DNA of 64,000 nucleotides. Origin: Gammaproteobacteria bacterium. GTDB taxonomy: Bacteria > Pseudomonadota > Gammaproteobacteria > Ga0077536. Made by a program: the position numbers and the translations under genes. Where the stretch lies: positions 1-64,000 of the forward strand of contig JACQWY010000047.1 in NCBI GenBank assembly GCA_016209015.1, read 5' to 3'. Within the stretch, counting starts at the first letter, position 1, and each line of letters starts with the position of its first letter. The notes beneath the pieces were generated by a model. That model saw only the letters and a program-made list of their open reading frames with translations. It was not told the DNA's origin and did no database searches. This document shows positions 47,090 through 61,795 of this stretch, piece after piece.

Positions 47090-49159
<2,070 letters not shown>

Positions 49160-49254
49160 CCCCTCGCTCACCGTGGCCCGGGCGATGGGCCGGGCACCCG
49201 GCTCCGATCCTGGATGAAGCGCTGAACAGCCCCCCGCCGGACCCGCGAGCAGCT

Positions 49255-49325
49255 TCCTTAAATCAGTTTCTACAAAGTATTCGTATTTCTATGAAATTAA
49301 AGTATATTTAGATCCATCTACATTA
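49255..49325 (+). promoter_or_regulatory. AT-rich promoter region of the GT2 polysaccharide operon
   Basis: A 70-bp stretch of very low GC lies just before the YaiO-like gene. It contains TATATT (49307-49312) with TTCGTA 17 bp upstream. The contrast with the neighbouring sequence suggests a regulated promoter or a target for nucleoid silencing. Confidence 0.45.
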
Positions 49326-49342
49326 GCTTTCGGAGCCGGATC

Positions 49343-50152
49343 GTGGGGACCTTGGGGGAGAATGGCAGCCAACGTGGTGCACAGCGTCCGAGCCGGGTGC
49401 GGGCGGCGCTCGCGTTCGGCGCTCTCACCGCGAGCGCCCCCGCCGCCGCGAATCAGCTCGAGCTCGGCGGCATGTACTACGACCTGAGCGCGGGCTACGC
49501 GCCGACGAGCGCCGTCTACAGTCGGGGGCGCGTGAATTCCAGCGCGCTGAACGAATGGCTGGGCGAGGTCGTGCGCATGAACCGCTTCGACGACAGCGGC
49601 ACATTCGTCGGCCTGGGCAACATCCATCACTTCAACGATCGCTGGTTCTCGAACGTCGCGCTCGGCACGAGCAGCGGCGGCTTCTTCTTCCCGGAAGTGC
49701 GTATCGACAGCTCGCTCAGCCGCAAGTGGCTCGACGGCCGCAATCTCGTCACGACCGTCGGCGTCGGTTACTACCAGGCGAAGGATCAGCATCGCGACAC
49801 GAGCCTGCTCGCCGAGGCTTCGTACTACTTCGCGGCGCCCTGGGTCCTGCAGGCGGGCACGACGCTGAACAACAGCGATCCCGGCAGCACGGCCTCGGCG
49901 TCCGGACGCGTCGCGCTGTCCTATGTCCGCGACAAGCAACGCATCGTCAGCGCGCAGGTCGGCGGCGGCAACCAGGCTTATCAGGCGATCACGGCGCAGC
50001 GCGCGCAGATCGATTTTCCCTATTACTCGGTGCGGCTGAACATGAAGCAATGGTGCGGTTACGACTGGGGCTTCAGCGTCAGTGCCGAGAGCTATCAGAG
50101 CCGGGTCTACGACCAGCGCGGGATCGAGTTCGGCCTGTTCAAGGAATTCTGA
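49343..50152 (+). CDS. YaiO-family outer-membrane beta-barrel protein
   Basis: The GTG at 49343 has GGAG 8 nt upstream and gives 269 residues. A signal peptide ends near residue 36 (ALTASAPAAA). Then come alternating aromatic strands, including YYDLSAGYAPTSAVYSR and VALSYVRDKQRIVSAQVGGG, and a final Phe (FGLFKEF), typical of outer-membrane barrels. YaiO-type proteins accompany glycosyltransferases and may export or anchor a polysaccharide (inference). Its stop overlaps the next start (TGATG). Confidence 0.85.
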   Translation: MGTLGENGSQRGAQRPSRVRAALAFGALTASAPAAANQLELGGMYYDLSAGYAPTSAVYSRGRVNSSALNEWLGEVVRMNRFDDSGTFVGLGNIHHFNDRWFSNVALGTSSGGFFFPEVRIDSSLSRKWLDGRNLVTTVGVGYYQAKDQHRDTSLLAEASYYFAAPWVLQAGTTLNNSDPGSTASASGRVALSYVRDKQRIVSAQVGGGNQAYQAITAQRAQIDFPYYSVRLNMKQWCGYDWGFSVSAESYQSRVYDQRGIEFGLFKEF

Positions 50153-50952
50153 TGGCGGGGAAGCTCCGGGACCTTCCCAAAGGCCTCTTGAGCGCACTGC
50201 GTTACCAGAGCCATTCGGGACGTCTCATCCGCCAGCACCGGGCGCTGCGCCGGCTGAATTTTCAACGCGCGAACGTCCTGCATCCGATAGTGCTCGTCGC
50301 GGCGAGCTATACCGCGCTCTACCTGCTCCTGCCCGAGATCACCCGGGCCTGGGGCCTGCTCTTCGGTTTCTGGCTCGACGTGCTCGGCCGGCCGGCGCTG
50401 CTCACGACGATCCCCGAGGACGTGTTCGGCATCTTCCTCTTCGCGCTCGCGGTTCCGGAGACCGTCGCGCGACAACCGGACGTGGCGGAAATCGGCATCG
50501 CGGCCTCGCTCGCGCTCGGCGCGATGCTCGCGAGCTATCTCGCCGGCCGCCGCCGCTGGCTGCCGCTCGTCTATTTCGTGTGGGGCTGCGCCGCGATCCA
50601 GCTCGTCGCCTGCGCGTACTTCTACGTCGCGCCTTACCGCTATCCGCATACGCTGGCGAGCCACGTCGCGGACGGCCTGCGCGCGGGCACGTCGCTGCTG
50701 CTGGTCCTGCCGCTGCTCCTGTCGTTCACGTACTACGTCTTCGATCACTCGCTGCCGAAGAAGCTGCTCGGCACGATCGTCATCTTCGCCGCGCTCGCGA
50801 TCTGCATTCCCGTGCTGTACCTCGCGCACGTCGTGCTCGTGGTCGGCTGCTCGCTCGTGATCATGCCGTTGCTCTTCACCGTGCTCGGCACGCTCTACCA
50901 GATTGCGCTCTTCGTCGCGCTCTACGCCTGGGTCGTCAGTTGGGAGCCGTGA
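50152..50952 (+). CDS. Multi-pass membrane protein of the GT2 operon, unknown family
   Basis: The 266 residues have a basic cytoplasmic N-terminus (about 1-40) and six to seven hydrophobic segments (about 45-60, 68-85, 95-108, 120-137, 143-162, 185-205, 208-265). I do not recognise a family. Tight overlap with the barrel gene before and the glycosyltransferase after (TGATG, GTGA) argues for one complex in the inner membrane. Confidence 0.75.
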   Translation: MAGKLRDLPKGLLSALRYQSHSGRLIRQHRALRRLNFQRANVLHPIVLVAASYTALYLLLPEITRAWGLLFGFWLDVLGRPALLTTIPEDVFGIFLFALAVPETVARQPDVAEIGIAASLALGAMLASYLAGRRRWLPLVYFVWGCAAIQLVACAYFYVAPYRYPHTLASHVADGLRAGTSLLLVLPLLLSFTYYVFDHSLPKKLLGTIVIFAALAICIPVLYLAHVVLVVGCSLVIMPLLFTVLGTLYQIALFVALYAWVVSWEP

Positions 50953-52373
50953 ACGAAGCGCGGACGCGGCGGCGACCGGTCGCGGCCGTCCTGCTGCTGC
51001 TCGCCTTCGCGAGCGGCATCCTGCTCCCGCTGGCGGGAATCGCCGCGGCCTGGCTGCCGGTCCTCGCGCCACGGGACGGCGGCGTGCCCGAAGCCTGGTA
51101 CGAATTCCTCGTGGGCGCGCTGCGGATCATGCTGATGACCGTCGCGGCCATCGTCGTCGTCTACACCGTCCGCCACGTCGTCTTCACGCTGAACCGCATG
51201 TTCGGCCATCAGCGCCATCCCTATCTCGATGTCGATACCGCGGACTGGCCGCGCGTCGTAGTGCTCATCCCCGCGCACGACGAGGCCGCCGTGATCGCGC
51301 ACGCGCTCGAAGCCCTCGTCGACGTCGACTATCCGCGCGAGCGCCTCCGGATCATGCCGATCGACGACCGCTCGACCGACGGCACCTGGGCCATCATCAC
51401 CGACTACGCCGGGCGCCATCCCGGCCTCGTCACGCCGCTCAAGCGCACCACCGGCCGCCCCGGCAAGGCCGCCGTGATCCGTGACGCGACGGAGAGCGTG
51501 CGCGAGGACGTCATCATCGTCTTCGATGCGGATTACGTGCCGGGACGCGGCCTCATCAAGCAGCTCGTCGCGCCGTTCTTCGACGCCGAAGTCGGTGCGG
51601 TGATGGGCCGCGTCGTGCCGCACAACACCGCGCGCAATCTGCTCACGCGACTCCTCGATCTCGAACGCGCCGGCGGCTACCAGGTCGATCAGCAGGCGCG
51701 CATGAACCTGCGCCTCGTGCCGCAGTACGGCGGCTCCGTCGGCGGCGCGCGCACCTCGGCACTGCGCGCGGTCGGCGGCTGGCGCGACGACGCGCTCGCC
51801 GAGGACACGGACCTCACGTATCGCCTGCTGCTCCACGGTTACAAGACGGTCTACGAGAACCGCTGCGAGTGCTACGAGGAAGTGCCCGAGGTCTGGCAGG
51901 AGCGCAACCGCCAGATCATGCGCTGGGCGAAGGGTCACAATCAGGCGGCGCTGCGCTATTTCGTGCCGCTGCTCCTGAGCCGGCGCCTGAACCTGCTCGA
52001 GAAGATCGACGGCCTGCTGCTGCTCGGCGTCTACGTCGTCGCGCCGCTCCTCATCATGGGCTTCCTGTGCGCGTTCGCGCTCTACCTGCTCGGCGAGCGC
52101 GTGCTGCCGCCGGCACTCGGCATCGTGCTCGGGCTCGCGACGTTCTCCTCGCTAGGCAATTTCGCGGCGTTCTTCGAGATTGCCGCCGCGCTGCACATCG
52201 ACGGCTCGCGCCATCGGATCCGCATCGTGCCGCTGAACTTCATCGGCTTCCTCGTCAGTCTCGTCAACATCACGCGCGCCTGTCTCTCGCTCGTCGTGGA
52301 GGATCTGCTGATCGGCAAGGAGCTGCGCTGGGAGAAGACGGCACGCTATCGCAACGGGCCGCCAGCCTCATGA
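50949..52373 (+). CDS. Processive family 2 glycosyltransferase (polysaccharide synthase)
   Basis: The GTG at 50949 gives 474 residues. Two N-terminal helices (about 12-38, 55-80) precede a GT2 domain: VLIPAHDE (105-112), DD (139-140), the metal-binding DAD (193-195), EDTD (285-288) as catalytic base motif, and QIMRW (322-326), the QxxRW of processive synthases. Two or more C-terminal helices (about 350-440) would form the export channel. This set resembles cellulose and hyaluronan synthases and NfrB/YaiP-like enzymes. The sugar cannot be told. No PilZ domain is present. Confidence 0.9.
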   Translation: MNEARTRRRPVAAVLLLLAFASGILLPLAGIAAAWLPVLAPRDGGVPEAWYEFLVGALRIMLMTVAAIVVVYTVRHVVFTLNRMFGHQRHPYLDVDTADWPRVVVLIPAHDEAAVIAHALEALVDVDYPRERLRIMPIDDRSTDGTWAIITDYAGRHPGLVTPLKRTTGRPGKAAVIRDATESVREDVIIVFDADYVPGRGLIKQLVAPFFDAEVGAVMGRVVPHNTARNLLTRLLDLERAGGYQVDQQARMNLRLVPQYGGSVGGARTSALRAVGGWRDDALAEDTDLTYRLLLHGYKTVYENRCECYEEVPEVWQERNRQIMRWAKGHNQAALRYFVPLLLSRRLNLLEKIDGLLLLGVYVVAPLLIMGFLCAFALYLLGERVLPPALGIVLGLATFSSLGNFAAFFEIAAALHIDGSRHRIRIVPLNFIGFLVSLVNITRACLSLVVEDLLIGKELRWEKTARYRNGPPAS

Positions 52374-53500
52374 TTTCCCACGCGCTGTTCTGGCTGTTCT
52401 GCGCGACGGTGCTGGGATTGCCGCTGCTGCCTGCGCTCGGCGAATGGTGGCGCAAGACGGACGCCGCGCCGCTGCGCGTCGTGCGCGAGCAGGACACGAA
52501 CATCCGGCACTTCGCGCATTCCTTTCACGATCACGTCTGGAATCTGTTCGCGGCCGAGGGCATCGACACGGAAGCGCCGCCCGCGCCCTACTCCGGCCAG
52601 TTCCGACCGGGGGAGACGTTCCTGTTCCTCGGGCACGAGAGCCGTCCGGTGTGGCCGCCCGAGGTCGCGACGACGCGCGCCGTGCGCGACGTCGTGATCG
52701 GACTCGGCGACCTGCTGCTCGAGGGCAATCTCGTGTTCACACAGGAAATCTATTGCGGCGGCCAGATCTATGCCGGCGGGCATTCGACGTTCCGCGCGAT
52801 CTATGCCGGTACGGATCTGATCCTCGGTCCGAACTGCGTCGTGGCGCGCTGGCTGCACTCGCAGGGCCACGTGCACGTCGGACCGGATTCGCGGATCTAC
52901 GGCCGCGTCTCGAGCGGCACGTCGATCACGCTCGGCCTGGGCACGCGTTTCGAACGCCTGAACGCGCCGGAGATCCGCTTCACGTCCGACGACGCGGTGA
53001 CGGCGCGGCCGGCCGCGGGCGGCGACGCGCCGCAGCAGTGGTGGCCCGACGAGCGTTTCCGCGCACTCGATCCGCTTACCTACACGACACGTATACGCCA
53101 GGTCGCGGTCCCGGCGGCGATGGCGCTGATCGTCTCGCTCGTCGCGCCCGGCGAGCTCGTGATCGGCGAAGGCTCGCAGGTGACCGGCAGCCTCAAAGCG
53201 AACGGCAGACTCCGGCTCGGCGCGAACTGTGTCGTGCATGGTGCGATCGTGAGCGCTGGCCCGATCGAGATCGGCAGCGGCTGCGTCATCAAAGGGCCGG
53301 TCATTTCGGAGGAGTCGATCATCGTCGCGAGTGCCTGCATCCTCGGTACGCCCGAACTGCCGACGAGCGTGACGGCGCCCGTCGTGCACGTCGCGGCGGG
53401 CAGCAAGGTCTGCGGCACCCTGTGGGCGGCGCGCGAGGGTCTCGTCGCGCCGGAGACAGCCATGTCGATGCCGGACGGGAAAGTGCAAAAAATCGTTTAA
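52370..53500 (+). CDS. Membrane-anchored bactofilin-like beta-helix protein of the GT2 operon
   Basis: The ATG at 52370 overlaps the synthase stop (ATGA). The 376 residues have one N-terminal membrane helix (about 4-22) and two blocks of short hydrophobic beta-helical repeats at about 100-180 and 255-350. Examples are LVIGEGSQVTGSLKANGRLRLGANCVV and IEIGSGCVIKGPVIS. They resemble polymer-forming cytoskeletal (bactofilin) or hexapeptide-type folds. A second hydrophobic stretch lies near 238-256. It may scaffold the synthase complex (inference). Confidence 0.75.
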   Translation: MISHALFWLFCATVLGLPLLPALGEWWRKTDAAPLRVVREQDTNIRHFAHSFHDHVWNLFAAEGIDTEAPPAPYSGQFRPGETFLFLGHESRPVWPPEVATTRAVRDVVIGLGDLLLEGNLVFTQEIYCGGQIYAGGHSTFRAIYAGTDLILGPNCVVARWLHSQGHVHVGPDSRIYGRVSSGTSITLGLGTRFERLNAPEIRFTSDDAVTARPAAGGDAPQQWWPDERFRALDPLTYTTRIRQVAVPAAMALIVSLVAPGELVIGEGSQVTGSLKANGRLRLGANCVVHGAIVSAGPIEIGSGCVIKGPVISEESIIVASACILGTPELPTSVTAPVVHVAAGSKVCGTLWAAREGLVAPETAMSMPDGKVQKIV

Positions 53501-53551
53501 TTCGCGGGCCGGGACATGAAACCCTGCCGGCTACGCGTTAAGGTGCCTGCC

Positions 53552-55111
53552 ATGCCAAATTGCGCGTTCGCGATTATGAAGAACCTGTCCCGGGCGGTTG
53601 CCGCTCTCTGCCTCGCCGCCGGCTGTCTGCCCGCCCACGCCGATCTCGCCTGGAGCGGCGCCGACGGCGCCTGGGACGACGCGAGCCAATGGTCGTCGGG
53701 CAGCGTGCCGACCGCGGCCGATTTCGTCCGCATCGACTACATCGGCGCAGTCACGCTTGCCGGCCCCGCCGATGCGGCGAAGGAACTGACGAGCCACGCG
53801 GCGTTGTCGCAGCACGGCGGCCATTTCCAGGTCGTCGGCACGGCGGATCTCTTCGGCAGCTACGATCTCGGCGGCACGGCACAGGCCGACGTCGGCCGCA
53901 TCTACGTACAGGCCGCGGGGCGCCTCGGACTCACCGGCTCCGGCGCCTCGCTCGCCGTCGTCGAAGGCATTTTCAGCAGCGGGGAATTTGCGGTCGACGC
54001 GGGCGCGACGGTCGGCGCAGAGAGCATCGACAACTACGCGCACATGAGCGTCGACGGCGCGAGTGTCAGCGCGAACAGCATGATCAACCATCCGGCTGCG
54101 GCGCTGACGGTCAGCGGTGCAGGCGGACAGCTCACGATCAACGGCGCGCTCACGAACCAGGGTAGCGTCACCGCGAGCGACGCCGGCAGGATCGCCGTGC
54201 ACAGCCTCGACAACCACGCGAGCGTCGAAGTGAACGCCGGCCGCTTCGAATTCGTCAGCATGAAGAATTTCGGCACGCTCGCCGTACAGCAGGCGGGCGG
54301 CGCGCTCGTCGGCACGGACAATCTCACGAACGGCGGCACACTCACCGTCGACAACGGCGCGGAAGCCGCGCTCGACACGATCGACAACGACGGCGAGTTC
54401 GTCGCGTCAGGCAACGCCGCGGTGTCGCTCGTCAGCATGGACAATCGGGCGAGCGGCGTGGTCCGGCTGCTCGATACGGCGACGTTCTCGAGCGTGGATT
54501 CGATCGTGAATCGCGGGCGCTTCACCGCCGCCGCCGGCACGCAGGTGAGCGTCGGTCAATTTCAGCAGTTCGCCGGCACGACTGCGCTCGGCGGCGGCCG
54601 CTTCGAAACGACGAATGGTCGCGGCCTCATCCTCGCGGGCGGTACACTCGAAGGGCGCGGCGACATCACGGGTCTCCTGAAGACGGAAGCCGGAGCGACC
54701 TTGACGCCCGGCGACGCCGGTGCGCCGGTCGGCACTTTCGCGATCGCGGGCGATCTCGTGCTGGGCGGCCTGTTCGATGTGCAGCTCGCCGGCCTCGGCG
54801 GCACGGCCATCGATCATCTGACGGCGACGGGCCACGCGACGCTCGGCGGCACGCTCGCGGTGTCGCTGCTCGGCGGTTTCGATCCCCTGGCCGGCGACGC
54901 CTTCGACCTGATCACGGCGAACGGCTTCGACGGCGCGTTCGCGCAGGTCCTGCTGCCGGCGCTCGGCGGCGGACGCCGGTTCGAGCTCGGCATCGCCGGC
55001 AACGTGCTGCGCCTGAAGGTCGCTGCCGTGCCTCTGCCCGCAACGGCCCTGCCCTTCCTGCTCGGCGGGCTCGCGACGATCCTCGGCGCGCGACGCCGCG
55101 TCTGCGCCTGA
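53552..55111 (+). CDS. Secreted beta-helical surface protein with VPLPA-CTERM sorting signal
   Basis: The ATG at 53552 has AAGGTG 7 nt upstream and gives 519 residues; 53516 and 53576 are alternatives. A signal peptide (RAVAALCLAAGCLPAHA) leads to about 14 short repeats with an N-x-G/A-x-L/V pattern (examples SIDNYAHMSV, SMKNFGTLAV, NLTNGGTLTV), predicting a parallel beta-helix. The C-terminus has VPLPATALPFLLGG, a hydrophobic helix and ARRR: the VPLPA variant of the PEP-CTERM signal processed by an exosortase. No exosortase is in the window. It follows the polysaccharide operon by 51 bp, which fits a link between PEP-CTERM proteins and exopolysaccharide. Confidence 0.82.
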   Translation: MPNCAFAIMKNLSRAVAALCLAAGCLPAHADLAWSGADGAWDDASQWSSGSVPTAADFVRIDYIGAVTLAGPADAAKELTSHAALSQHGGHFQVVGTADLFGSYDLGGTAQADVGRIYVQAAGRLGLTGSGASLAVVEGIFSSGEFAVDAGATVGAESIDNYAHMSVDGASVSANSMINHPAAALTVSGAGGQLTINGALTNQGSVTASDAGRIAVHSLDNHASVEVNAGRFEFVSMKNFGTLAVQQAGGALVGTDNLTNGGTLTVDNGAEAALDTIDNDGEFVASGNAAVSLVSMDNRASGVVRLLDTATFSSVDSIVNRGRFTAAAGTQVSVGQFQQFAGTTALGGGRFETTNGRGLILAGGTLEGRGDITGLLKTEAGATLTPGDAGAPVGTFAIAGDLVLGGLFDVQLAGLGGTAIDHLTATGHATLGGTLAVSLLGGFDPLAGDAFDLITANGFDGAFAQVLLPALGGGRRFELGIAGNVLRLKVAAVPLPATALPFLLGGLATILGARRRVCA

Positions 55112-55123
55112 GGCGGCACGCGC

Positions 55124-55588
55124 TCAGCCGCGCTCCGCGACGACGACCTCCGTGCGGATGGAGTTCGCGATGAAGCACTCCTCGTGCGCGAGATGGTGGA
55201 GCTCGGCGATCTGTTCCGAGGTCGGCGCCGCGCCGGCACCGTAGACGATCTCCGGGTTCAGGCTCACCCGGCTCACCCAGTACTTGCCCCGCTCGTTCTT
55301 CGTCATCACGCCCACGGCGTCGTCGGCATAGCGCTCGACGAGGAAGCCGCGCTTCGAGGCGAGGTGCAGAAACGTCAGCATGTGGCAGCTCGCCACCGCG
55401 GCCACGAAGGCCTCCTCCGGATCGACACCCGCAGGATTCGAAAACGGCGCCGGAACGACGGACGGCGACGGCGAGGCGGGCACGGTCACGCCGCCGTCGA
55501 AACGCCAGGTGTGCTCGCGGGAATAACGGCCGCGCCGGAAGTCGGCGCCGCTGAACGACCAGTGCACGCTCGCACGATGCTCGGACAT
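55124..55588 (-). CDS. OsmC/Ohr-family protein
   Basis: The 154 residues have the OsmC fold with the two peroxidatic cysteines in ASCHMLTFL and EECFIANSI, and PFSNPAGVDPEEAFVAAVASCHML. It probably reduces organic hydroperoxides. It converges on the VPLPA-CTERM gene with a 12-bp gap. Confidence 0.92.
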   Translation of the reverse strand: MSEHRASVHWSFSGADFRRGRYSREHTWRFDGGVTVPASPSPSVVPAPFSNPAGVDPEEAFVAAVASCHMLTFLHLASKRGFLVERYADDAVGVMTKNERGKYWVSRVSLNPEIVYGAGAAPTSEQIAELHHLAHEECFIANSIRTEVVVAERG

Positions 55589-55767: not shown

Positions 55768-58251
55768 TCAACGCCGCTCCGCCGCGCCCATCCGCAGCTC
55801 CGCGACGTAGCGCCGGCCTTCGCGATCGGTGAGCCAGCACCCGTCGGGGCCCGGCAGCATTTCGACGACGGAGATCGACGCCGCCGGCGACGCGGCGCGC
55901 ACGCCGTCGGCGAACTGCTCGGCATAGACGAGGCTGTCGAGATCGAGGAAGAACGGCTTGCCCTCGCCTTCGAGACGATAGAACGCGTGCCGCGGAATGC
56001 CGAGATCGCGCGCCCAGCGCCGCAGCCCGAGGTAGCGCGCGGCGCGATCGTGCAGGCGCACGAAGGGCAGCTCCGCGGCGCACACGCGCCAGGACTCGCG
56101 CTGCACGACGAGCCTGTCGATGCAGACGCGTGGCAGATGCGCATCGAGCCGGAACGGCTTGAACTCGCTCATGCCCAGGATGCGGACCTGCGGCCCGAGA
56201 AACTGCACGAGCGGCCAGCACCGGCCGTCGCGCGCGACGACGAGGGGGGCCGCGCCGTCGAGCGCGAGCGCGAGGTCGGCGATGCGCACCGGCGCGCCCG
56301 ACCCGGCCGGCGCTGCGTTCGCGCCGTGGAGCACCGGCACGTCGTGGGCGAGCGGCAACTGGTAGGCGGCGCGCTGCCCCTTGCCTTCGAGACCTGCGAC
56401 CGGCACGAGCTCGGGCACGTTCTGCACGGCGGCGACGGCGGCGAGGAGCTCGGCCGGCGCGGGACAGAATTTCGCGAACAGGCGCTGCGCCGTGAGATTC
56501 GTGCCCGGATGCACTTCGCCGAGTACGGCGAGCCAGTCCGGATCGTCGAACGAGCGCGCGGCGAACATGAGATCGGGCGAATGCCAGCGCGCGCCCGACC
56601 ACGACGCCTCGCGCCAGGCGAACCGCCCGGCAAGGCGCGGCAGGACGGCACCGCTCGCGAACGCGACGGCGCGCGCTGCAGGGTCGAACCCGAGTGCCTC
56701 GCGCCAGCGCGCCTGCAGATCCGCCGTGACCGCGGCCGCGAGCGCAGTCGCCTCGGCATGGGCCTCCGCGAGAGCCGCCCACAGCGCCGCCAGCGGGACG
56801 ATCGCGCCGCACTCGCTGCGCAGCGTCGCGCATCGGGCATTCGCGAAATCGAGATAGCGTACGAGCAGCGTATTCGAGAACCAGCGCGCGCTGTCGAGCA
56901 CGCAGGACAAGGCCGGCGCGAGCGCGGCGACGCGCGCCTCGTCGAGCACGAGCTCGACGTCGCGCACGGCGTCCGGATAGAGCGGCGTGCGGCCGGCGTA
57001 AGCCTTGCCGGCGTGACGGCGGGCCGCATCACCGGTGACCGCGACATACTCCGCATCGAACGCCGCGAGTGTCGCGGCCAGCGTCTCCGGCGTCGCCTGT
57101 GCGGCCGCGTCGCGAGCCCGTTCGAGCCGCGCGAGCAGACTCCGTGCGGGCGCACGGACCCCCTGCGGCAGCGCATCGAGCGCGGCGCGGAATGCCCGCT
57201 CCGGCTCCGGTTCGACGGCGACCGGCACCCGCCAGTCGATCACGCCGCTGGCCGCGAGCTCGTCGAGCAGGGCTTCGACGGTGGGCGCATCGGCACCGCG
57301 CGCGGGTTGACCGAATTGCGCGATGAGTGCGGCCGCCGGCGTGCGCCCGTCGCAGGCCGCGAGGAATTCGCTCTGCAGCGCATCGAGCGGCAGCTCCCCG
57401 TCCGGCAGCACGAGCCGGCCCGCCACGAGCGCTGCCTCCGCCGCGAGGCGCGGCGCGAGCGCGAGCCGGAACGGGCGCACGGCCGAGAGCCGGCGCGCGA
57501 GCGCCTGCAGCGTCCAGCATTCGAAGTAGGTACGCTCTTCGGCGATCACGGCCGGCCCGGGTTCGAGCCGCGCGCCCGGCCCGACGAGCGCGTATGCGAC
57601 CGGGCCGAAATGTCCGATGCTCTCGTTCTTCGCGAGATAGCGTTGCAGGTAGCGCGCCGCGACGCGGCGCAGCGGGCGGGTCGAGGCGGATCCGGCGAGC
57701 CAGGCGCCGAGTCCGTCCGACCAGAGATCGCGGTTCTGCCAGATTACCGCGGTGCGCAGCGCGGGATCCGCGAAGGCCGCGCGCAGGCGCTCGTCGATCG
57801 TCGCAGCGGCGACCTGTAGTGCCGCGGCGAGCGCCGCTGCGGCGGCCGCACGCCGCGCCTGGGCCTCGGCCAGCGCGGCACACGCTTCGCGCGCCGCAGG
57901 CTCGGCGACGAGCATTTCGGGGATCCGGCCGACGCGGAGCCGCTTCAGTCCGAGCTGCCAGGGACGGGGTTCGAGATCCGTCGCGATCCGCTGCATGCAG
58001 ATCGCGCGGAGCGATCGGCTGGCCGCCTCGCAGGACTCATCGGAAGCAGCGAAGTCGCGCCACGCCGCGGCGAGCCCGGCGTCGGCGAGCTCGTCGAGGC
58101 CGGCGACGGGGAAGCCCGCGGAGCGCAGGCAGCAGACGCGCGAGAGCACCCAGTCCGCGTCGAGTGCGAGCGGGCGCTCGAGCGCGGCGACGAGGGCGGT
58201 GCGATCGAACACGGCAGACGCGCTCAGCGCCGGACCGGGCCCGGTCCACAA
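55768..58251 (-). CDS. Orphan LanB-like lantibiotic dehydratase domain protein
   Basis: The 827-residue frame resembles the N-terminal (glutamylation) domain of class I lanthipeptide dehydratases. Signs are an opening WVLSRVCCLRSAGFP, NESIGHFGPV (about 210), WREASWSGARWHSPDLMFA and LGEVHPGTN. The late segment runs RRWARDLGIPRHAFYRLEGEGKPFFLDLDS near the C-terminus. No separate elimination domain, cyclase or precursor peptide was found nearby. It could be a tRNA-dependent amino-acid ligase on a protein substrate (inference). The frame starts with TTG at 58251, next to a terminator; GTG at 58212 is equally plausible. Neither has a good RBS. Confidence 0.75.
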   Translation of the reverse strand: MWTGPGPALSASAVFDRTALVAALERPLALDADWVLSRVCCLRSAGFPVAGLDELADAGLAAAWRDFAASDESCEAASRSLRAICMQRIATDLEPRPWQLGLKRLRVGRIPEMLVAEPAAREACAALAEAQARRAAAAAALAAALQVAAATIDERLRAAFADPALRTAVIWQNRDLWSDGLGAWLAGSASTRPLRRVAARYLQRYLAKNESIGHFGPVAYALVGPGARLEPGPAVIAEERTYFECWTLQALARRLSAVRPFRLALAPRLAAEAALVAGRLVLPDGELPLDALQSEFLAACDGRTPAAALIAQFGQPARGADAPTVEALLDELAASGVIDWRVPVAVEPEPERAFRAALDALPQGVRAPARSLLARLERARDAAAQATPETLAATLAAFDAEYVAVTGDAARRHAGKAYAGRTPLYPDAVRDVELVLDEARVAALAPALSCVLDSARWFSNTLLVRYLDFANARCATLRSECGAIVPLAALWAALAEAHAEATALAAAVTADLQARWREALGFDPAARAVAFASGAVLPRLAGRFAWREASWSGARWHSPDLMFAARSFDDPDWLAVLGEVHPGTNLTAQRLFAKFCPAPAELLAAVAAVQNVPELVPVAGLEGKGQRAAYQLPLAHDVPVLHGANAAPAGSGAPVRIADLALALDGAAPLVVARDGRCWPLVQFLGPQVRILGMSEFKPFRLDAHLPRVCIDRLVVQRESWRVCAAELPFVRLHDRAARYLGLRRWARDLGIPRHAFYRLEGEGKPFFLDLDSLVYAEQFADGVRAASPAASISVVEMLPGPDGCWLTDREGRRYVAELRMGAAERR

Positions 58252-58317: not shown

Positions 58318-59145
58318 TCAGTCCGCTTGGCGGCGGCGCGCGCAGCGCAGCGCGGCGAGGCCGAGACCCAGCAGCGCGAGGCTGCCCGGCTCCGGCACCG
58401 GCTGGTTCGTGCGGGCCGCCTGCAGGATCGGGTTGTCGGCGACGGCCAGCGGGAAGTCCGGGTCGCCCGTGCGACGGGTCATGTCCGTCCACGACGCCTG
58501 GTACGGCGCGGCCGTTTCGCCGAACGGCGAGACCAAGCCGAAACCGTCACGGAAATCGTCCGGCCAAATCGAGTCGCCGCCGCCGCAGCTGAACTCCGAC
58601 GAGCCGCCTTCGCAGGCGCCGGTGTAGAAGTGCAGCACGTGGCTGACGGTATTGAACGGGTTGTTCGAGGCGCCGCCGTAGAGCGCGTCGAAGATGTCCT
58701 TCAGCGGATCCCCATCGGTCTGCCAGTCGGCAACGCCGTCCCAGCCGGTCGCGACATTCGCCTCACCGATCGTCTCGATGGCGTAGTTCCAGCCTTCGGG
58801 AACGATGACGTTCGTGATCTGCGAGGCATCGCTGCCGTCCGCCTGACCGTCGGTGCCCGTGCCGAAGTACGGCAGCTCCCAGTCGCGGAGGACTTCGATC
58901 ACCGGCGCTTCGCGATTGACGGAATTCGAGGTGTTGCACACCCGGAAGTCGTAAGTGAACGTGCCGTTACCGTTGTCCGTGACCGCCGAGGTGACGGCCG
59001 AGGTGTGCGAACCGCTCACGCCCGGGCAACTCGGCAGCGGATCGGTCGCCACGATCGCGTGCGCGACGCCCGAGAAGGCCGTCAGTCCCAGCGCCCCGAA
59101 GAGGGCCAACGCCGAGACACGATTGTGATTGTTGAAGTGCTTCAT
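58318..59145 (-). CDS. PEP-CTERM sorting-domain surface protein
   Basis: The 275 residues have a signal peptide (VSALALFGALGLTAFSGVAHA), an extracellular domain of about 210 residues with six Cys and repeated Asp/Gly/Trp, and the classic C-terminal signal QPVPEPGSLALLGLGLAALRCARRR. PEP is followed by a hydrophobic helix and a basic end. AGGAGG lies upstream of the ATG. It would be exported and processed by an exosortase, probably into an exopolysaccharide matrix. The domain itself I do not recognise. It has a sigma-54 promoter. Confidence 0.9.
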   Translation of the reverse strand: MKHFNNHNRVSALALFGALGLTAFSGVAHAIVATDPLPSCPGVSGSHTSAVTSAVTDNGNGTFTYDFRVCNTSNSVNREAPVIEVLRDWELPYFGTGTDGQADGSDASQITNVIVPEGWNYAIETIGEANVATGWDGVADWQTDGDPLKDIFDALYGGASNNPFNTVSHVLHFYTGACEGGSSEFSCGGGDSIWPDDFRDGFGLVSPFGETAAPYQASWTDMTRRTGDPDFPLAVADNPILQAARTNQPVPEPGSLALLGLGLAALRCARRRQAD

Positions 59146-60691: not shown

Positions 60692-61795
60692 TCACGTGGC
60701 GGATGGGCCATGCGCCGCGACGGTGGCGACGAATTCGCGGCTGCGTTCGAACAGTTCGTCCCCGGCGGACAACAGCGCACCGCCGATGAGCAGCATGGTA
60801 TCGCGTCCGTAGAGCGCGAGCATCTCCGGGACGCGCGCGACGTTCATGCCGCCCGCCGGCACCGGCAGACAGGCCCGGAGGTGACCGTGCGGCGCGCGCG
60901 CCCCATCAGTCAGCTCGACGCAGAGCTCGCGGCTGTAGCTGAAGCGGCCGCCGTAGTTCGGGAAGATCGTCGCGTCCGCGCCGCACAGCCGGAACAGCCG
61001 CCCGCAGAGGAGCGGCGGATGGATGCGCGAGACGCCACCGAGCGCGGGATGCGCGATCACGGGAACCTCGATCGCCGCGACGAGCTCCGCGAACGTCGGC
61101 AGGCCCATCACCATCGGCGCGGCGAGCAGCGCGCCGACGCCCTCGTCGCGCGCGATCCGCACCTGCTCGGCGAGCTGTCGCGGCCCGCCCGAGAGGCTCG
61201 GTGCATAGACGGCGCGGCGCCCGGTTTCGCGATTCGCGGCGGCCACCGCACGCTGACAGGCCGCGACGCGCGCCGCGAACGGCGCATAGCGCTGGTTCGC
61301 GATGCCGTGATCGTCTTTGATGACGTCGAGCCCCGCGCGCGCGAACGTCCCGGCGAGCGCGGCGAGCTCGGAAGGCGGCAGGCCCTGAGGCTTCAGCGCC
61401 GTGCAGGTCAGCGCGCGGCCGTGTGCGTCGAGGCGCTCACGCAGGCCCGCGATGCCGAAGCGCGGTCCGGGGAACGCGCCGAGCAGCGCCGGCGGCAGCG
61501 CGACGTCGACGAGTTGGACGTCGTCCTGCAACGAGCAATTGCCGAAGAGCATGTTCATGAGCTGGCCGATCTCCGAGCCGGTCGTCTCGACCGCGAGCTC
61601 GAGCGCGACGCGAAAGCCGCCGGCGGGCAACGGCGCGACGTCGGCGACGCGCGCGACGATTTCCTCGCGCACGTAATCCGAGCGCACGGCGGCGAGCGGC
61701 ATCTCGATGCTCTGCTCGAGCGCGAGCGCCGCGGCGCGCGCCGCGACGTCGGCCGGCGAGGCCGCGAGGTGATAGAGGACAGTCAGGCAATCCAC
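60692..61795 (-). CDS. RuBisCO-like protein (form IV), candidate methylthioribulose-1-phosphate isomerase
   Basis: The GTG at 61795 gives 367 residues. RuBisCO large-subunit landmarks remain: TALKPQGL (K135), the carbamate-lysine region with K160 in IKDDHGIANQ, HPALGG, FPNYGGRFSY and PVPAGGM. The KDDE of true carboxylases is KDDH, and several substrate residues differ, so it should not fix CO2. Together with the cupin it recalls the R. rubrum 5-methylthioadenosine-isoprenoid shunt, where the RuBisCO-like enzyme isomerises 5-methylthioribulose 1-phosphate. No RBS is evident. Confidence 0.88.
   Translation of the reverse strand: MDCLTVLYHLAASPADVAARAAALALEQSIEMPLAAVRSDYVREEIVARVADVAPLPAGGFRVALELAVETTGSEIGQLMNMLFGNCSLQDDVQLVDVALPPALLGAFPGPRFGIAGLRERLDAHGRALTCTALKPQGLPPSELAALAGTFARAGLDVIKDDHGIANQRYAPFAARVAACQRAVAAANRETGRRAVYAPSLSGGPRQLAEQVRIARDEGVGALLAAPMVMGLPTFAELVAAIEVPVIAHPALGGVSRIHPPLLCGRLFRLCGADATIFPNYGGRFSYSRELCVELTDGARAPHGHLRACLPVPAGGMNVARVPEMLALYGRDTMLLIGGALLSAGDELFERSREFVATVAAHGPSAT

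Follow-up and report, generated by a model that had tools for sequence, protein, structure and literature searches.

Encoded on the forward strand of the window, the 64,000-nucleotide stretch analysed here (positions 1 to 64,000 of contig JACQWY010000047.1, assembly GCA_016209015.1, from a gammaproteobacterium), is a compact operon of four genes, referred to here as A to D (Table 1). An earlier reading of the DNA made without database searches, the original prediction, had singled it out as a locus for an envelope polysaccharide. The genes are linked by the short overlaps described in that reading: TGATG at the stop of A and start of B (50150–50154), GTGA between B and C (50949–50952) and ATGA between C and D (52370–52373). 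All frames are intact, and GC content at third codon positions (GC3) is 0.86–0.90, a coding-type value, in every operon gene. The 'AT-rich promoter' proposed upstream stands in its first half only: GC content is 45% over positions 49220–49339 and 73–76% in two flanking blocks, but a scan of 48900–55400 for sigma-70-type promoters returned no sites (mean of 0.4 in shuffled sequences). A terminator scan of the operon region found nothing.

Table 1. Features of the operon and its immediate surroundings, in window coordinates
Feature	Position	Strand	Remarks
AT-rich intergenic stretch	49220..49342	+	45% GC, 5′ of the operon; candidate promoter region, none confirmed
Gene A, YaiO-type outer-membrane β-barrel, 269 aa	49343..50152	+	PF19413, TIGR04390
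Gene B, six-helix membrane protein, 266 aa	50152..50952	+	predicted model; no Pfam family
Gene C, processive GT2 synthase, 474 aa	50949..52373	+	D, DxD, ED, QxxRW motifs
Gene D, bactofilin-like, 376 aa	52370..53500	+	N-terminal transmembrane helix and two β-helix stretches
Gene E, secreted repeat protein, PEP-CTERM-like end	53552..55111	+	3′ of D; sub-threshold motif

Gene A, which has a GTG start and an N-terminus resembling a signal peptide by eye, passes the family cut-offs of both Pfam (PF19413, 106.7 bits against 23.9) and NCBIfam (TIGR04390, 136.8 bits against 32), in keeping with its earlier assignment as a YaiO-like outer-membrane barrel. Gene B, called a polytopic protein of no known family, matches no Pfam family, and neither does any of its family members (0 of 58). 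Its AlphaFold model (predicted local distance difference test score (pLDDT) of 92.2) comprises six long helices, with a β-hairpin inserted between helices 1 and 2. Comparison with the PDB gave 314 matches at E ≤ 10 and none at E ≤ 0.001, and none of the 993 chains aligned in a fold comparison reached a Z-score of 8, which is not proof of a new fold.

Gene C carries the four motifs of a processive family 2 glycosyltransferase (GT2), DDRSTD at residue 139, DAD at 193, EDTD at 285 and QIMRW at 322, three of which had already been noted; all four are present in 79 of 80 relatives. The best curated model is PgaC/IcaA, at 105.2 bits against a cut-off of 422.3, and neither CelA (64.6 bits, cut-off 699.1) nor NodC (68.9 bits, cut-off 550) is passed. 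The missed curated cut-offs bear out the view that the locus encodes neither a standard cellulose nor a standard poly-N-acetylglucosamine (PNAG) system. In Pfam and NCBIfam model searches, the operon proteins matched no PilZ, BcsB/C or ATPase family. Sharing of one operon by an inner-membrane processive GT2 and an outer-membrane barrel is also seen in synthase-dependent exopolysaccharide secretion.

Gene D encodes a single N-terminal transmembrane helix followed by β-helix (model pLDDT of 92.9), of which the C-terminal part overlays the bactofilin BacA (PDB 2n3d; Z-score of 10.9, r.m.s.d. of 2.5 Å, 102 residues aligned). The Bactofilin profile PF04519 is matched at E ≤ 0.01 by 53 of 57 family members. 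Its Pfam cut-off is passed by the homologue from Escherichia fergusonii (31 bits) and not by that from E. coli (22.1 bits), and NCBI annotates the Escherichia homologues as polymer-forming cytoskeletal protein. The bactofilin-like label of the original prediction is upheld on the family-wide profile and, with an adhesin domain scoring equally high, more loosely on the fold. Left-handed hexapeptide acyltransferases align to D only at an r.m.s.d. of approximately 11 Å, which we read as opposite handedness to the D helix. In 68 of 76 D proteins, lysine and arginine are more numerous after the transmembrane helix than before it, so that the positive-inside rule places the β-helix in the cytoplasm; the count covers 76 of 77 proteins, leaving out the truncated 228-residue D of locus L037 and including that of L088, whose start looks wrong. 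A separate, small bactofilin (65.2 bits) lies 3′ of one locus (L061:15955–16644); members of its cluster, c10, are present in 13 of 80 loci, many of them from Polaromonas.

Conservation was assessed in the best 80 of 114 relatives of C in GTDB, a set that is biased to relatives of this gene because it was found through it. The set includes records titled Gamma-, Beta- and Alphaproteobacteria, Acidobacteria and Rhodothermales. A and B are each present in 73 of the 80 loci and D in 77, and all four genes occur together in 73. D lies directly 3′ of C in 76 of 77 loci, and A and B are same-strand neighbours in 70 of 73; the set thus moves as two pairs. When B and C were each searched for independently in 36 genomes of the window's family, both turned up in the same five (Fisher P = 2.7e-6), and the order A-B-C-D-E is kept in this family. 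In a sample of 369 genomes from across the class, five contain C (E ≤ 1e-80); B is present in those five and in one other, G310 (P = 1.1e-10), where the match is a fragment of 37 residues only. The four genes are a real and widespread unit, and a lack of co-occurrence elsewhere, which would have refuted the original prediction, was not observed. In addition to the window protein, the alignments took in 57 of the 73 B relatives, 56 of the 77 D relatives and 43 of the 80 C relatives; two B outliers (L048 and L065) were left out for length and other rows were thinned. In a Ramlibacter metagenome-assembled genome (L071:9917–11401), C is spread over two reading frames, through either breakage of the gene or faulty assembly; it was counted in the C total and left unmended.

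Missed by the original prediction is a core partner of the A–D set, WecB, the UDP-N-acetylglucosamine (UDP-GlcNAc) 2-epimerase. Its gene is found within 3,388 bp in all 73 loci with A–D, and at no more than 350 bp or between the genes in 64 of them (22 layouts); in each of the five of 80 loci that have no WecB, a contig end truncates the locus. WecB-A-B-C-D form one block in a genome of the window's family (G019) and in two from other families of the class (G241 and G296). Elsewhere in the window's family, WecB-A-B-C and C-D-E lie on two contigs (G020), WecB follows E on the opposite strand (G017), or the contig ends inside C with no WecB seen 5′ of A (G016). As a core partner, WecB points to the sugar.

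The window itself has no WecB, a gap that the original prediction likewise missed; its genome holds two unlinked copies, C11 and C56. The C56 copy is isolated and groups with the operon WecBs of G019 and G020 (support of 0.951, on long branches). All 79 sequences compared, the C56 copy and E. coli WecB among them, retain four presumed catalytic residues. The C56 copy (G000:C56:188912) is most likely the WecB serving the window operon. The C11 copy sits within a polysaccharide and exosortase-like cluster (L095, G000:C11:6001–26000; gene names by eye) with a GC3 of approximately 0.52–0.63, against mostly 0.8–0.9 in other stretches, and this low GC3 suggests that the cluster was probably acquired by transfer.

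Two accessory genes, referred to here as X and Y, accompany many loci: X lies near 56 of the 73, Y near 37, and neither near eight. Y scores 19.4 bits in Pfam, under the cut-off, and 11 of 15 members match the XrtA deacetylase model at E ≤ 0.1; on this sequence evidence we call it deacetylase-like and go no further. A putative deacetylase near the relatives would fit an N-acetylated polymer. X has no convincing solved-structure or NCBIfam match, and its by-eye reading as a six-hairpin glycosidase was set aside. On a conjugative IncI1/B/O plasmid of E. fergusonii, the order is D homologue-WecB-YaiO-B-acyltransferase-X-C, with profile matches of 578.9 bits for C, 244.5 for X, 97.8 for D, 77.2 for B and 75.4 for A (the hidden Markov models used only sequences within set length limits). 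Megablast with this version found related DNA in two of 5,426 complete E. coli genomes, and in the one that was read the gene order is the same, so that an acyltransferase gene is present in the Escherichia versions.

We propose, with a probability of roughly 0.6, that the operon specifies a system for synthase-dependent secretion of a polysaccharide, with UDP-N-acetylmannosamine (UDP-ManNAc) as substrate, in which A is the exit, B a partner and D a cytoplasmic bactofilin-type scaffold. WecB would epimerize UDP-GlcNAc to UDP-ManNAc, which C would polymerize on the cytoplasmic side while threading the chain across the inner membrane. B is predicted to be an inner-membrane partner of C, of A, or of both, and the chain would leave through the YaiO barrel. 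With one helix as its anchor and its β-helix facing the cytoplasm, D may fix or cluster the synthase; X and Y, where present, may trim or deacetylate the chain. What is observed is the genes present, their conservation and linkage, the motifs and the predicted folds; substrate, polymer, contacts among subunits and the scaffold role of D are inferred. NfrB and WecB of E. coli are the precedent for a UDP-ManNAc-dependent synthase. More tentatively, and doubtful as it stands, the set could be a poly-ManNAc machine separate from Nfr in which a bactofilin anchored to the membrane forms an obligatory part of the core and positions or clusters the synthase, a cytoskeleton-coupled system carried by several phyla and a conjugative plasmid.

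Several observations weigh against the UDP-ManNAc system proposed for the operon. Neither WecB nor a wecB remnant is detectable in the window (tblastn with three WecBs, best E of 1.0), so the substrate link in the window's genome rests on relatives. Neither X nor Y was found in that genome at E ≤ 0.001, in searches with one query protein each and no positive control there, and tailoring is accordingly not supported for it. C's closest curated relative, PgaC, is a UDP-GlcNAc enzyme. The window D protein reaches 23.0 bits against the Bactofilin profile, under the cut-off of 27.9, and its fold list puts an adhesin domain (Z-score of 11.2) level with BacA. Many of the 73 A–D loci come from a single genus, Polaromonas, and the loci are therefore not independent.

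The sugar could be a different one, with C using UDP-GlcNAc to make a PNAG-like polymer, or with the WecB product being oxidized to N-acetylmannosaminuronic acid (ManNAcA) or entering another pathway. The PgaC/IcaA match suggests the former, and WecB-type enzymes serve other glycans too. The WecB reaction is reversible according to Junkermeier and Hengge (PMC8669469). The PgaC/IcaA match is nevertheless far under its cut-off, and WecB is linked in all 73 A–D loci of the GTDB set. Besides A–D, WecB, X and Y, no cluster occurs in more than 26 of 80 loci (clusters not all annotated), so that no regularly linked dehydrogenase is seen; we regard another sugar as rather unlikely. Somewhat less probable still is that D acts on the chain, as an epimerase, lyase or acyltransferase, instead of serving as a scaffold. 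Folds of the β-helix type are common among polysaccharide-active enzymes, and D has the conserved residues W161, H163 and F194; the cytoplasmic placement of the helix domain, the poor fit of hexapeptide acyltransferases and the Bactofilin matches across the family argue against an enzyme.

That the window copy is a degenerating locus which has lost its wecB would account for the missing local WecB and for the failure to find X and the deacetylase, but is very unlikely given the intact frames, retained motifs, coding-like GC3, A-B-C-D-E order kept in the family and two WecB genes elsewhere in the genome. Most improbable is that the set is a divergent Nfr system, and thus a member of a known family. 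The logic is shared, with a QxxRW-bearing GT2, an outer-membrane barrel and WecB, and a profile alignment joins C to NfrB (93.5%, E of 2.2e-7). This alignment is limited to the GT2 domain; the MshEN cyclic di-GMP (c-di-GMP) domain of NfrB (52.9 bits) and the TPR and NfrA_C regions of NfrA are missing from C and A, and the nfrB-nfrA-ybcH operon has no annotated counterpart of B or D. Membership of the Nfr family was rejected on these grounds, C being a distant GT2 relative of NfrB.

Located 3′ of D is gene E, which agrees with the surface protein reported there earlier, although its PEP-CTERM motif (11.6 bits) is under the Pfam cut-off of 20.7. E follows D in four of four same-family loci whose contig reaches it (G000, the window's genome, G017, G019 and G020), and it belongs to the set in the window's family, a point that the original prediction missed; among the 80 loci it was found only in L011 and L012, the same loci as G017 and G019. 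In this bacterial family, E is probably a surface protein that acts together with the polymer. Nearby, a secreted protein (58318–59145, minus strand) has a clear PEP-CTERM motif (28.9 bits against 20.7) and is likely to be a second exosortase substrate. Also on the minus strand are a protein of 827 residues with no Pfam match at E ≤ 0.01 (55768–58251) and one of 367 residues matching the RuBisCO large-chain catalytic domain at 75.1 bits (60692–61795), possibly a RuBisCO-like protein.

If the UDP-ManNAc reading is correct, the set would be a widespread addition to the few known synthase-dependent polysaccharide systems, with a directly testable predicted sugar, ManNAc, and would bring to them two core components, a membrane protein outside known families and one resembling bactofilins. 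Such surface glycans can serve as phage receptors and as the matrix of biofilms; the N4 glycan receptor (NGR) of E. coli is that of phage N4 according to Sellner et al. (PMC8669472). Study in culturable bacteria is possible, as versions are present in records named Cupriavidus, Duganella, Chromobacterium, E. fergusonii and E. coli.

No description of an A–D locus was found in searches of the open-access full-text literature, which leaves subscription papers mostly outside coverage, and within that literature the set equals no described locus, the other outcome that would have refuted the original prediction; it is apparently an undescribed variant of synthase-dependent secretion. The Pga/Ica systems resemble it in their related GT2 synthase and in the deacetylase-like gene near many relatives of the set, but C is under the PgaC/IcaA cut-off, and WecB and D take the place of PgaA/PgaB-type proteins, which the window operon does not have. 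Bcs cellulose synthase shares the processive GT2 with D, DxD, ED and QxxRW motifs and differs in its PilZ, BcsB and BcsC components and in a CelA cut-off that C does not reach. From typical bactofilins, which its C-terminal β-helix and the E. fergusonii homologue resemble, the window D protein is set apart by its length, transmembrane anchor, second β-helix and sub-threshold Pfam score.

In the yaiS-yaiP-yaiX-yaiO locus of E. coli K-12, a YaiO barrel is likewise encoded close to a GT2 gene. C shares only 26% identity with YaiP, BLAST gives no significant match between A and YaiO, and no WecB or B is annotated; identity with this locus was rejected. YaiX is a putative acyltransferase split by an insertion sequence, annotated as IS2 (L094), and the K-12 locus is a distant parallel. 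The closest functional likeness is to E. coli NfrA-NfrB-YbcH with WecB: Sellner et al. (PMC8669472) postulate a polymer of N-acetylmannosamine that depends on WecB, and Junkermeier and Hengge (PMC8669469) report nfrB homologues linked to wecB. Shared with the window set are a processive GT2 and an outer-membrane barrel, and probably the dependence on or linkage to WecB, seen for the set as gene linkage in relatives, hence presumably UDP-ManNAc. With a YaiO barrel instead of NfrA, B and D as extra core proteins and a synthase distant from NfrB that has no MshEN domain, the set would work like Nfr but is not a member of it.

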